Origin: Glaciihabitans arcticus
GTDB lineage: Bacteria; Actinomycetota; Actinomycetes; Actinomycetales; Microbacteriaceae
Assembly: GCF_004310685.1 (NCBI RefSeq)
Contig: NZ_SISG01000001.1
Coordinates: 186,001 to 250,000 of the forward strand
Direction of reading: 5' to 3'
Length of the DNA stretch: 64,000 nucleotides
Shown piece by piece: positions 52,296 to 56,813 of the stretch. Position 1 is the stretch's first letter. Every line of letters begins with the position of its first letter. A model generated the notes under the pieces. It had not been told where the DNA came from and ran no database searches. It saw nothing but the letters and a program-made list of their open reading frames with translations. The position numbers and the translations under genes are program-made.

Positions 52296-53033
52296 ATGCT
52301 GACCGCCCTCGCAGATGGCGCCCTGCTCGCCGAGAAGACCGGCGCCACCCCGCCCACCGTCGTCGCCCTGCACGGCTGGATGCGCACGGGTGCCGACTTC
52401 GCCGCCATCGTGAGCGGCCTCGACGCCGTGTCCATCCATCTGCCCGGCATGGGTGTGACACCCGAGCCGCCGGAGGCCTGGGGCACCGAGCGGTACGCGG
52501 AGGCCGTCGCCGACGCGATCGAGGGCTTCGGGCCCGTCATCCTCGTCGGCCACTCGTTCGGCGGAAGGGTCGCCGTGCGACTCGCCGCCTCGCGCCCCAA
52601 TCTTGTGCGTGGTGTTGTGCTCACAGGGGTTCCGCTCGTGCGGCTCACCGCGGCGAAGAAGCCGGCGCTCGGATTCCGCATCGTGCGCTCGCTCGCGAAG
52701 GCGAAGCTCGTTCCGCAGTCGGTGCTCGAGAAGCAGCGACGTAAGCACGGCTCGGCCGACTACCTCGCTGCTCGCGGAGTGATGCGGGACATCCTCGTGC
52801 GAACCGTCGGTGAGAACTACGACGACGACCTGCGCAGGCTCTCCACGCCCGTGCGCATGGTCTGGGGAGAGAACGACACCGCTGCACCCGCCGACGCAGG
52901 CCGGGCCGCCGCTGCGATGGTCCGCGGCGCGCGGTTCCGGGTCGTGCCCGGAGCTGGACATCTGCTCGACGGCGAGCTGCGCACCGCGGTGCGCGAAGAA
53001 CTGACCGCCATGATCGAGGAGACTGAAGCGTGA
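52296..53033 (+). CDS. Alpha/beta hydrolase, first gene of the MurF-like/Ddl-like unit
   Basis: 245 residues with an alpha/beta-hydrolase fold: oxyanion region LHGWMRTGADF, nucleophile elbow GHSFGG (Ser near residue 90), the acid in VWGENDTAAP and the C-terminal His in VPGAGHLLDGE. Its TGA overlaps the GTG of the MurF-like gene, and it lies 19 bp after gpsA. Tight linkage to two peptide-ligase-like enzymes suggests it acts on their product or precursor, perhaps as an esterase or amidase (inference). Confidence 0.85.
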   Translation: MLTALADGALLAEKTGATPPTVVALHGWMRTGADFAAIVSGLDAVSIHLPGMGVTPEPPEAWGTERYAEAVADAIEGFGPVILVGHSFGGRVAVRLAASRPNLVRGVVLTGVPLVRLTAAKKPALGFRIVRSLAKAKLVPQSVLEKQRRKHGSADYLAARGVMRDILVRTVGENYDDDLRRLSTPVRMVWGENDTAAPADAGRAAAAMVRGARFRVVPGAGHLLDGELRTAVREELTAMIEETEA

Positions 53034-54583
53034 CCCCGGAAACCATCATCTACGTTGGCACCCTCGTCGTCGGCGTGATCGTCGCCGTCGTGGCCGGCTT
53101 CCGCTGGCTGCGCGTTGCCCAGCGCGAGCACTACATCGCGCCGTGGGTCTCGATCATCGCCGCCCTCTGGCTGCGGGTTGTGCCGGTCAACCTCGCCTAT
53201 GTGGGCGGCGCCGTGCTGTTCACGGTGCTCGCGATCGTGATCCCGCAGAACGGTTCGGCGCTTCAGCTCGCGCTGCCCGCCGTCGCGGTGGCCGCCCTCG
53301 CCTCCGTGCCGATCGGGCTCGGCGTGCGCGGCACGAGCGCCAAGCTCGCGTGGACCGCGCGACTGCGTCGCCTGGTCGTCGTCTGGGTGCTGCTCGTGGC
53401 CGTCATCGGTGCCGCTCTCGTGCTTCTCATCGGGCTGCCCGGGGTGCCGATCGTCATCCTCGCTCTCGCACCGATCACGGATCTGGCACTCGTCATTCTC
53501 AAGCCGATCGAGAAGGCGCTCTCGCGCAAATACCTCGTCAGCGCGCGCAAGCGCCTGCAGCAGGTGCGCCCGACGATCGTGGCGATCACCGGCTCATACG
53601 GCAAGACCTCGACCAAGGGCTACGTCGCGCACATCCTCGGCGCCGCCTTCACGACCGTCGCCTCGCCCGCGAGCTTCAACAATCTCATGGGCCTGTCGCG
53701 CGCCGTCAACGACCGCGTTGTTCCCGGCACCGAGGTGTTCATCGCCGAGATGGGCGTCTACGGCCGCGGCGAAATCCGCGAGCTGAGCGAGAGCTTCCCA
53801 CCCGACATCGCTGCCATCACCACCATCGGAGAGGCGCACCTCGCCCGCATGGGCTCGCGCGAGGTCATCTTCCAGGCCAAGTCCGAGATCACCGAGAAGG
53901 CGCGCATCGTGGTGCTGCCGGTCGACGAGATCGAGCTCGCCGGGCTCGCCGCGCTCTGCCGCACCCAGGGCAAGCGGGTCGTCACCGTCTCCACCGTGCC
54001 CGGCACGGACGCTGATGTGATCGTGGATGCCGCGGCCGGTACCGTCACGGTCGCCGCCGTCACCGCGCCCGTGTCGATCCCGGCCGTGGGCCACGCCGTC
54101 AACCTCGCCATCGCCGTGGGCATCGGAGTCTCGCTGGACATGGACTTCAGCACGATCGCCAAGCGCCTCAGCCACCTGCCCGACTCCCGCCACCGCGCCG
54201 AGATCCAGGAGGCGCCGAGCGGCGTGCTGATCATCGACGACACCTACAACTCGAACCCGGTGGGCGCCGCGCGTGCGCTCGAGGGTGCGGCACTCCTCGC
54301 GCAGGAACGCGGCGGACCCCTCGTCGTCGTGACGCCGGGCATGGTGGAGCTTGGCAGCGTGCAGTTCGCGCGCAACCGGGCGTTCGCTGCATCCATCGCC
54401 GAAAAGGGCGGGGACCTGTTCGCCGTCGCCCGCACCAACAGGGCGGCACTCGTCGAGGGCAGCGCGGGCGGAACCGTGCGCGTCTTCGAGCGACGTGTCG
54501 AGGCCGTCGCCGCGGCACTCGATCAGGCCGGCGACCGAGGCGTTATCCTCTATGAGAACGACCTGCCCGACCACTACCCCTGA
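53030..54583 (+). CDS. Membrane-anchored MurF-like Mur ligase
   Basis: 517 residues from a GTG overlapping the hydrolase stop. The N-terminal ~160 residues form about five transmembrane helices in place of the UDP-binding domain of normal MurF. Then comes the Mur-ligase central domain: ATP loop ITGSYGKTSTK (about 185-195), SFNNLMGLSRAV, EMGVYGRGEI, TTIGEAHLARMGS, and the C-terminal domain with IIDDTYNSNPVGAARALEG, the last typical of MurF. MurF normally adds D-Ala-D-Ala to the UDP-linked tripeptide in the cytoplasm; loss of the UDP domain points to a membrane-linked acceptor (inference). Confidence 0.85.
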   Translation: MTPETIIYVGTLVVGVIVAVVAGFRWLRVAQREHYIAPWVSIIAALWLRVVPVNLAYVGGAVLFTVLAIVIPQNGSALQLALPAVAVAALASVPIGLGVRGTSAKLAWTARLRRLVVVWVLLVAVIGAALVLLIGLPGVPIVILALAPITDLALVILKPIEKALSRKYLVSARKRLQQVRPTIVAITGSYGKTSTKGYVAHILGAAFTTVASPASFNNLMGLSRAVNDRVVPGTEVFIAEMGVYGRGEIRELSESFPPDIAAITTIGEAHLARMGSREVIFQAKSEITEKARIVVLPVDEIELAGLAALCRTQGKRVVTVSTVPGTDADVIVDAAAGTVTVAAVTAPVSIPAVGHAVNLAIAVGIGVSLDMDFSTIAKRLSHLPDSRHRAEIQEAPSGVLIIDDTYNSNPVGAARALEGAALLAQERGGPLVVVTPGMVELGSVQFARNRAFAASIAEKGGDLFAVARTNRAALVEGSAGGTVRVFERRVEAVAAALDQAGDRGVILYENDLPDHYP

Positions 54584-54621
54584 TCGTGGCAGCCTGACCG
54601 GCAATCCTTGGAGTTTTTAGC

Positions 54622-55752
54622 GTGAGTTCACCGTGGGCAGTTCTGTTCGGCGGGCCATCGCCCGAGCACGAGATCTCGATCCTCACGGGTCTGCAGTCCG
54701 AGCGGGTTCTGACCGCCGCGGGCGAGAAGGTCACCCCCATCTACTGGTCGCCCTCAGGTGAGTGGTTCCTCGTGCCATCGGGCACCGAGGCGAAGGACTA
54801 CCTGGACGGCGTGCCGAAGGGCTCCAAGCCGATCGAGGTGCGCCTGTCCGGCGACTCCGGTCTCTACGTCAAGCGCAAGGCGCTGCCGATCTCGGCCGTG
54901 CTTCTCACCCTGCACGGTGGTGTCGGCGAGGGCGGGGGCGCTGCCGCGCTGTTCACGCTGCTCGGGATTCCAGCCACCGGCTCCTCGCTCTTCGCGGGTG
55001 CGGTCGGCATGGACAAGCTCGCCTTCGGTGGGCTCATGGCGGCAGCGGGCATCCCGTCACTGACTCGCGAACACCTGTCCGCGGACGTCCCGCCGACCTT
55101 CGCGGGTCCGTACATCGTCAAGCCGCGCTTCGGTGGCTCGTCCATCGGTATCGAGATCGTCGAGGATGCCGAGACTGCCCTCACGATCGCGAAGGCCAGC
55201 GCCCACCTGCGCGCCGGAGCCGTGGTGGAGCCCTACCGCCCCGACCTCGTCGACCTGAACATCTCCTTCCGCACCTACCCGGCGCTCGAGGTCACCGCCG
55301 TGGAGAAGCCGCTGCGCGGCGACACGGCGGGCGCCCTGTACTCGTACGCGGAGAAGTACCTCTCCGGTGGCGAGGGTGCCGAGGTCGGTTTCACGAGCGC
55401 GCCGCGGGAGTTCCCGGCCGACATCCCGTCTTCCGTTGCAGACCTCGCTGCCTCACTGGCCCGCCGTGTCGCCGCGGTGACCGGCCTGACCGGTGTCTGC
55501 CGCCTCGACCTGCTCTTCGACGAGAAGACCGGCGAGCTCTTCGTCAACGAGGTCAACTCGATCCCCGGTGCGATGTCGCTCTACCTCTGGGCTCCGCAGG
55601 CCGCTGCCGCGGTTGTGCTGAAGGATGCCCTCGTCGAAGCACGGGATCACCGCGTTGTGCTGCCCGCCTCCGGCTTCGGCTCGGGCGCCGCGCTGCGCGC
55701 CGCGGGCGGTATCGCCGGCAAGCTCGTCGGTCTCGACGGGCCGCGCGCGTAG
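54622..55752 (+). CDS. D-alanine--D-alanine ligase family protein (divergent)
   Basis: 376 residues from GTG 54622, with TTGGAG upstream. An ATP-grasp ligase of the Ddl type: GGPSPEHEIS (active-site Glu), KPRFGGSSIGIEIVE (active-site Ser), YSYAEKYLS, CRLDLLFD and NEVNSIPGAMS. One segment departs from canonical Ddl: HGxxGEDGxxQG here reads HGGVGEGGGAAALF. It may be the main D-Ala-D-Ala ligase, since the surrounding order is the usual actinobacterial one, or a specialised D-Ala-D-X ligase paired with the MurF-like enzyme. The sequence does not settle this. Confidence 0.85.
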   Translation: MSSPWAVLFGGPSPEHEISILTGLQSERVLTAAGEKVTPIYWSPSGEWFLVPSGTEAKDYLDGVPKGSKPIEVRLSGDSGLYVKRKALPISAVLLTLHGGVGEGGGAAALFTLLGIPATGSSLFAGAVGMDKLAFGGLMAAAGIPSLTREHLSADVPPTFAGPYIVKPRFGGSSIGIEIVEDAETALTIAKASAHLRAGAVVEPYRPDLVDLNISFRTYPALEVTAVEKPLRGDTAGALYSYAEKYLSGGEGAEVGFTSAPREFPADIPSSVADLAASLARRVAAVTGLTGVCRLDLLFDEKTGELFVNEVNSIPGAMSLYLWAPQAAAAVVLKDALVEARDHRVVLPASGFGSGAALRAAGGIAGKLVGLDGPRA

Positions 55753-55755
55753 CTG

Positions 55756-56229
55756 CTACTCGAGCGTGTCCGCGACCTCGGTGCAGGATGACGTCGCCGT
55801 GGTCGCCGCCACCGCCCGTGACACGTCCAGCAGGGCGGGCGCCGGGGCCACGAGATCCCGGTTCAGAATGACCTCGGTCGCTGGAGAGCGGCCATAGGTC
55901 GTGTAGACGTAGTTGGGGGAGCCCGCGTCATCCACCAGCCAGAAGACCCCGCCGACCTCGTAGCAGGGCAGCGTTGCGGTGGGATCGGGCTCGGGAACCC
56001 CGCAGCGCAGCAGCACTGCGGCGGGACTGCCCCACGCGAGCGTTCCCTGGGCGTTCGTCTCGCGGATCGGGAGCTCGGCGACGTCGCTCGGCGCATCCAC
56101 CATCACCTGCGCGCAGAGCGGATCCACGGCGAACTCGGCCGGCCGCAGCGACACGGTCTGCACGCACCCGGTGAGGGTCAGGGCGAGGGCGGCCAGCAGC
56201 GCGAGTCTCTTCAGCGGCTGGGTCGTCAC
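55756..56229 (-). CDS. DUF3515 lipoprotein, copy 1
   Basis: 157 residues from a GTG. Signal peptide with lipobox ALTLTGC. The DUF3515 region carries VDPLCAQVMV, ETNAQGTLAWGSPAAVLLRCGV and the YVYTTYGRSPATEVILNRD segment. The family is found next to ddl and thiL in actinobacteria; function unknown. A second copy lies just upstream on the same strand. TACGCT ends 6 nt before the GTG, and this spacing is repeated in the second copy, which fixes the start. Confidence 0.88.
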   Translation of the reverse strand: MTTQPLKRLALLAALALTLTGCVQTVSLRPAEFAVDPLCAQVMVDAPSDVAELPIRETNAQGTLAWGSPAAVLLRCGVPEPDPTATLPCYEVGGVFWLVDDAGSPNYVYTTYGRSPATEVILNRDLVAPAPALLDVSRAVAATTATSSCTEVADTLE

Positions 56230-56333: not shown

Positions 56334-56813
56334 TCAGTCGGCGTCGGTGGGGTTGCCGAGGGTGTCCTCGACCTCGGTGCAGGTGCCCGTGGACTCCGTG
56401 TAGCCGATCGCGCCGGTCAGGGCGTAGAGGGCGGCACCGGGCGAGACGACATCGCGGTTGATGACGACCTCGGTGGCGGGGGAGCGGCCATAGGTCGTGA
56501 AGACGTAGTTGGGCGCGTCGGTGTCGTCGCGCAGCCAGAACACGTCATCCACCTGCACGCAGGGAAGGGTCGAGGTCGGCTCGGGCTCGGCGACGCCGCA
56601 ACGCAGGATCACCGCGGCCGGGCTTCCCCACGCGGTGACGCCCTGGGCGTTGGTCTCCCGCAGCGGCAGATCGGCGACGTCGTAGTTGGTGTGCACGATG
56701 ACGTCCGCGCAGCCGGGGTCGGCCGCGAACTCGGCGGGCTCGTAGGCGAGGGACTGCGCGCAGCCGGTGAGGGTGAGAACGGCGAGGGCGGCGATCGCGA
56801 GCAACTTCTTCAT
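56334..56813 (-). CDS. DUF3515 lipoprotein, copy 2
   Basis: 159 residues. Signal peptide with lipobox VLTLTGC. It shares long stretches with copy 1: RETNAQG.(T/V)AWGSPAAV.LRCGV, YVFTTYGRSPATEV.INRD and a C-terminal CTEVEDTL. The most variable parts are the first 30 mature residues and the tail. Same-strand tandem order with copy 1 (104 bp between) and closely similar promoters indicate a local duplication. It is divergent from thiL. Confidence 0.88.
   Translation of the reverse strand: MKKLLAIAALAVLTLTGCAQSLAYEPAEFAADPGCADVIVHTNYDVADLPLRETNAQGVTAWGSPAAVILRCGVAEPEPTSTLPCVQVDDVFWLRDDTDAPNYVFTTYGRSPATEVVINRDVVSPGAALYALTGAIGYTESTGTCTEVEDTLGNPTDAD

Follow-up and report, generated by a model that had tools for sequence, protein, structure and literature searches.

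A membrane-anchored MurF-type ligase, encoded with a hydrolase and a Ddl-type ligase, as a probable replacement for soluble MurF in lineages of Actinomycetota

MurF, a drug target, is generally taken to be a universal cytoplasmic step. Among the described systems closest to the locus considered here, MurT/GatD includes a Mur-type ligase that lacks a uridine-binding domain and is reported to act on lipid I/II and not on UDP-linked precursors (PMC6085368). In Campylobacter jejuni, PMC5530802 places Cj0796c, a protein with an alpha/beta hydrolase fold, near MurF (Cj0795c) and Ddl (Cj0798c). Here we analyse three adjacent genes of Glaciihabitans arcticus, encoding an alpha/beta hydrolase, a membrane-anchored MurF-type ligase (mMurF in the following) and a Ddl-type ligase (DdlV). 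They lie in a stretch of 64,000 nucleotides (contig NZ_SISG01000001.1, positions 186,001 to 250,000), hereafter the window. We propose that mMurF has probably replaced the soluble, UDP-binding MurF in the lineages that bear this module. No description of a membrane MurF was found in the open-licence papers searched. The gene trio itself may exist in Campylobacter too.

The trio and its parts, in window coordinates, are as follows.

52296-53033, plus strand: alpha/beta hydrolase, first gene of the trio (open reading frame, Pfam, homologue alignment)
53030-54583, plus strand: mMurF, MurF-type ligase with an N-terminal membrane domain (open reading frame, Pfam, NCBIfam, alignment, AlphaFold2)
53030-53569, plus strand: helical membrane domain of mMurF, residues 1-180, signature WLRVAQREHY (alignment, model, hydropathy)
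53570-54583, plus strand: catalytic part of mMurF (Mur_ligase_M and Mur_ligase_C), ending in YENDLPDHYP (Pfam, alignment)
54622-55752, plus strand: DdlV, Ddl-type ATP-grasp ligase (open reading frame, Pfam, NCBIfam, alignment)
54925-54945, plus strand: altered DdlV loop GEGGGAA (sequence, alignment)

Open reading frames and Pfam agree with what a first-pass annotation had read here: three packed genes, for a hydrolase, a MurF-like and a Ddl-like ligase, at this place and on this strand, the stop of the hydrolase overlapping the start of mMurF by 4 bases (GTGA, 53030-53033). The gap between mMurF and DdlV is 38 bases. The hydrolase matches Abhydrolase_6 (8e-20), and DdlV carries both Dala_Dala_lig_N and Dala_Dala_lig_C over their gathering scores. 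On mMurF, Pfam finds Mur_ligase_M (residues 186-360) and Mur_ligase_C (388-507) and nothing else; the N-terminal Mur domain PF01225 was not found by Pfam even at E<=1, in contrast to the canonical MurF of the same genome, which does carry it. Likewise, the murF model TIGR01143 aligns to mMurF from profile position 65 only, with 179.2 bits against a cut-off of 288.6.

An AlphaFold2 model of mMurF, built with 63 sequences (mean pLDDT 94.5), is helical through residue 179, with helices at 3-32, 39-50, 52-70, 77-91, 110-134, 138-144 and 146-179. From hydropathy we assign about five membrane-spanning segments, placing 39-50 at the surface. Across 80 homologues, the three predicted cytoplasmic loops hold on average 5.4, 3.8 and 5.5 Lys/Arg, and no such residue is present in the two predicted outside loops, both short at 6 and 4 residues. 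This charge pattern fits the positive-inside rule, and the N-terminus is therefore predicted to lie outside and the catalytic domains in the cytoplasm. Pfam, TIGR01143, the model and hydropathy thus converge on the earlier annotation's claim that a domain of about five helices stands where MurF has its UDP-binding domain.

The remainder of the protein is MurF-like. The solved structures nearest to the model are those of MurF, 3zl8 (Z 37.0, 357 residues, rmsd 4.6) and the top Foldseek match 4qf5 (Z 36.7, 356 residues, rmsd 4.5), both superpositions spanning model residues 109-515. The P-loop, SFNN, the AEM residues, H270, K284, R389, N407, N409 and P410 are invariant in 63 sequences. mMurF thus has in common with MurF the central and C-terminal Mur domains, the P-loop, FNN, EMG and N-x-NP motifs, and the fold. 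It differs in its membrane domain, in the missing UDP-binding domain, in its sub-threshold score and in its C-terminus, YENDLPDHYP, where three aligned canonical MurF read VLVKSSKS. In the MurF tree, the split between mMurF and canonical MurF is supported at only 90/99 and 87/94.

Genome content suggests a replacement, mMurF taking the place of MurF in many species. Among 55 genomes picked for bearing mMurF (two of which, G214 and G465, are one genome by coordinates), no MurF exceeds the curated cut-off in 51. In a sample of 396 genomes of the phylum, a profile made from five members of the genus has matches at E<=1e-42 in 30, the window genome included, and MurF exceeds its cut-off in 339. 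One genome has both, 29 have mMurF only, 338 canonical MurF only and 28 neither (Fisher p 5e-27, with lineages that are not independent and some incomplete genomes among the 28). Only the window genome can occupy the first of these classes, because the best murF matches of the other 29 are too weak (2.5e-73 or weaker or, for G214 and G311, not under 1e-46).

The same pattern holds within the family of the window genome, sampled as 329 genomes at least 90% complete and taken to be Microbacteriaceae because its genomes share coordinates with named members such as Marisediminicola senii. There, 297 are over the murF cut-off and 30 have a weaker match only. We re-searched 29 genomes of the family whose best match was weak: 27 proved to have mMurF (6.5e-182 or better), and the matches in the other two, G547 and G641, are canonical MurF in pieces. 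Eleven canonical controls (six from the family, three from the order, two from the class) scored 7.3e-57 to 8.3e-49 in this search. For G737 there are three matches, not all among the matches listed. With the congeners G001, G003 and G005 added to the 27, the family has 30 genomes with mMurF only, 296 with canonical MurF only, one with both and two with neither. Fourteen further genomes with sub-cut-off MurF (f34, f39 and f64) were considered as possible mMurF bearers and set aside, none reaching mMurF scores (6.5e-46 or weaker). The f34 proteins (in G266 and G339, for instance), MurF-type, about 440 residues long and far below the murF cut-off, are another divergent form of MurF.

Closer to the window genome, canonical MurF was not found in the two most complete congeners, where the best murF matches are 2.6e-55 and 9.7e-54. 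G001 and G003, both 99% complete, encode six Mur-type ligases each, identifiable by place and score as MurE, MurD, MurC, mMurF, FolC and MurT. The dcw cluster of the window genome and of three congeners has, next after murE, a remnant of MurF that is 219-316 residues long. This remnant aligns to the C-terminal part of the enzyme, and the regions of the P-loop, FNN and EMG are missing from it:

L016 7994-8653; L109 8427-9338; L110 8179-9120; L111 10769-11719 (minus strand): degenerate MurF open frames after murE

No Pfam match was obtained for the remnant of G001. We read these frames as a direct sign that soluble MurF was lost. Partial murF matches of similar extent, not aligned to the remnant, occur in G434, G435 and G436.

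The arrangement itself is widespread. The order hydrolase-mMurF-Ddl recurs across Actinomycetota, so that the pairing of a membrane MurF with Ddl noticed in the window is real and conserved across the phylum. A scan of named genomes gave 262 loci encoding relatives. The best 80 of the 262 include Microbacteriaceae (among them Glaciihabitans, Marisediminicola, Salinibacterium, Microcella, Yonghaparkia and Gulosibacter), Actinotalea, Arsenicicoccus, Nocardioides, Propionibacteriaceae, Frankiales metagenome-assembled genomes (MAGs) and many Acidimicrobiia. Of the 104 loci examined, 96 yielded both mMurF and Ddl; in 90 of these, the two genes share a strand and are separated by a short gap. A start codon for mMurF overlapping the hydrolase is available in 85 of 101. 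The family f22 has the same gene order, yet its Ddl is over the canonical cut-off in 3/3 genomes tested. Two genera, g289 and g327, contain both canonical-MurF and mMurF species, as would result from a repeated switch, from gene transfer or from mixed genera.

DdlV resembles Ddl (TIGR01205) in both of its domains and in its active site. Invariant in 64 sequences are E15, H98, S173/S174, K245, Y246, R294, D296, E310 and N312. By our own reading, they correspond to the active site of DdlB, presumably Glu15, His63, Ser150, Tyr216, Arg255, Asp257, Glu270 and Asn272. DdlV differs from Ddl in a longer C-terminus and, in the clade of the window, in the loop, where GEGGGAA indeed stands instead of GEDGxxQG. 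Tyr321 follows the PG of the NE.N..PG stretch by five residues, at a position that we take to be Ser281 of DdlB, and hardly varies in the DdlV family. The structure 2pvp, presumably the Helicobacter pylori Ddl, has this tyrosine too, within a PG-S/A-x-x-x-Y-L stretch common to both, so Tyr321 alone does not mean a new product. In the Ddl tree, the trio's Ddl, the f22 Ddl and 2pvp stand apart from ordinary actinobacterial Ddl (99/99), 2pvp forming a long branch whose grouping with the trio's Ddl is unsure.

Does the altered loop point to a modified dipeptide, as the first-pass annotation had supposed? This idea was dropped, since most relatives keep GEDG: it is present in 63 of 97 aligned rows, GE[G/N/S/A]GG in 33 and GEAGT in one. 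The changed loops sit in a single clade (100/100), which includes L171 with GEDGG. All 17 tallied genomes with a second Ddl have GE[G/N/S/A]GG, and GEDG is found in 18 of the 21 rows where the trio's Ddl is the sole Ddl kind. Exceptions to this association are L153 and L155, with a changed loop and no second Ddl match, and L128, with GEAGT and a single Ddl. (The tally omits L143, whose one listed match is the paralogue DdlP described below, and L130 and L193 are one genome.) We draw no functional conclusion from this pattern, because it is fully confounded with phylogeny and second Ddl matches are also common in relatives without the trio; the invariant active-site residues likewise speak against a changed role of the loop variants. 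In 18 rows, that is 17 mostly Acidimicrobiia genomes by those named, the trio's Ddl, on the same contig as mMurF, is the sole Ddl match at E<=1e-30; one of them, G117, is a single contig and 99% complete. In these genomes the module would also hold the only Ddl found. G257 has one Ddl match, on a contig other than that of mMurF, and the trio occurs twice in G470.

Next to a ParB-like gene, the window genome encodes DdlP, a paralogue of Ddl (L018 7898-8857). DdlP reads LEASVMPG where Ddl has NEVN..PG, a motif that presumably includes Asn272 of DdlB. It adjoins the trio in Actinotalea, Nocardioides and Frankiales MAGs. As many relatives without the trio have a second Ddl match, DdlP is not tied to the trio.

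The genomes themselves show the architecture, its conservation, the decay of the dcw murF and the mutual exclusion of mMurF and canonical MurF. The trio would then be a MurF/Ddl module for the synthesis of peptidoglycan precursors, alternative to the usual one and anchored in the membrane. DdlV would make a D-alanyl dipeptide, and mMurF, with about five helices in the membrane and its ATP-using domains in the cytoplasm, would join it to the stem tripeptide. The hydrolase would be a coupled accessory that perhaps clears incorrect ester or peptide products. Completion of the pentapeptide would come after MraY, on the tripeptide form of lipid I or II.

Several points weigh against this proposal. 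Both mMurF and DdlV score below the curated MurF and Ddl cut-offs (DdlV has 150.2 bits against 245.65 for TIGR01205). The window genome and three Nocardioides, that is 4 of the 55 genomes, have both kinds of MurF. Many of the genomes are incomplete MAGs, and the lineages are not independent. Finally, C. jejuni peptidoglycan is reported to end in D-Ala-D-Lac (PMC7700173); if the Campylobacter cluster is kin to the trio, the dipeptide here may also differ from D-Ala-D-Ala.

Which acceptor would mMurF use? Because mMurF has lost the UDP-binding domain and carries a membrane domain instead, a lipid-linked acceptor, the tripeptide of lipid I or II, seems the most likely, a proposal that we hold tentatively and with rather less than even confidence. 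It is our leading inference because MurT, without the same domain, is reported to act on lipid I/II, and mMurF has a membrane domain in addition. MurT differs from mMurF in that it amidates D-Glu, with GatD as partner, and in lacking a membrane domain of several helices. The earlier annotation had envisaged a lipid-linked or a wall-linked acceptor; the first is plausible, and the second is disfavoured by the predicted cytoplasmic location of the ATP-using part. With a lipid-linked acceptor, the order of precursor synthesis could have changed in whole lineages of Actinomycetota, the tripeptide passing onto the lipid first and mMurF, served by a Ddl of its own and the coupled hydrolase, then adding the dipeptide, with no UDP-MurNAc-pentapeptide; we regard this as possible, short of an even chance.

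Alternatively, mMurF may have replaced MurF and still use UDP-MurNAc-tripeptide, its membrane domain serving only to dock the enzyme at MraY or at the division machinery. The MurF-like central and C-terminal domains are compatible with such a docked enzyme, and docking of MurF at the membrane has a precedent in H. pylori, where Csd5, a membrane protein, is reported to recruit MurF to the envelope although the precursor made is soluble (PMC9507126). However, mMurF has no UDP-binding domain, and MurT, equally without uridine binding, is reported not to use UDP-linked precursors (PMC6085368). We consider a docked enzyme of this kind a strong alternative, though less likely than not.

The first-pass annotation had favoured instead an added system, working beside housekeeping MurF and Ddl, by which a modified dipeptide would be attached to an acceptor linked to lipid or to the wall. 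The four genomes with both kinds of MurF and the GEGGGAA loop speak for it. The refuting condition set by that annotation has a split outcome. A further murF and ddl do exist in the window genome, in a canonical murF-alr-ddl operon (L017 8252-11708, near 1.91 Mb) which is possibly a later gain; it is the sole case in the family sample shown alongside mMurF. However, canonical MurF is wanting in 51 of the 55 mMurF genomes and in the two congeners, so the pair mainly replaces housekeeping MurF and is not an added ligation system. In addition, the trio's Ddl is the only one matched in 17 genomes, the loop change is limited to one clade, and the module recurs across the phylum and is not peculiar to the window. 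An added system is thus very unlikely. The idea that mMurF is a MurT or another named Mur-type ligase was rejected, as no MurT model of NCBIfam matches at E<=1 and its partners are a hydrolase and a Ddl; the window genome encodes its own MurT/GatD, away from the trio. Chance open reading frames are ruled out by the homologues and the conserved order, an arrangement kept across a phylum not being due to chance.

The hydrolase is probably active, because Ser87, Asp194 and His222 are invariant in 34 homologues. That it clears wrong ester or peptide products is our guess, which we offer as a weak suggestion. In C. jejuni, attempts to delete Cj0796c failed and about 1 in 10 transformants with an added copy were filamentous, as reported in PMC5530802. 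The hydrolase is thus possibly essential there, and the three gene kinds lie close together as in our trio, a likeness drawn from the gene order given in that text and not from sequence. An esterase would be a sensible partner if the D-Ala-D-Lac statement is right and the clusters are related, in which case the dipeptide may differ as noted above. By the same analogy, the trio may be older and wider than Actinomycetota. HP0738-HP0740 of H. pylori may be the same trio, which our literature search did not confirm.

Upstream of the trio, the window holds murA, plsC and gpsA domains and, downstream, two DUF3515 genes and an AIR-synthase-type (thiL-like) gene. In ordinary-Ddl loci of relatives, DUF3515 adjoins Ddl in 8/8, and the series gpsA-ddl-DUF3515-thiL is whole in 3/8, the remaining loci ending early. 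The trio of the window occupies the slot of the ordinary ddl in this series, and most of the Microbacteriaceae loci read have it in the same slot. The adjacent DUF3515 genes (55756-56229 and 56334-56813, minus strand) are mutually similar and form a tandem duplication. An Rfam scan gave two tRNAs only, and a search of viral contigs gave nothing informative for the trio. Among plasmids, no place covering 80% of mMurF was found; the listed matches, where annotated, are ordinary MurF, Ddl or Van ligases.

If true, a membrane MurF in place of MurF would show that the membrane is a possible site for the last cytoplasmic ligation. The species concerned would then be predicted to differ in their precursor pools and in how they respond to inhibitors of MurF and MraY and to D-cycloserine. 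The alpha/beta hydrolase beside murF and ddl, reported in Campylobacter too, would gain a testable context.

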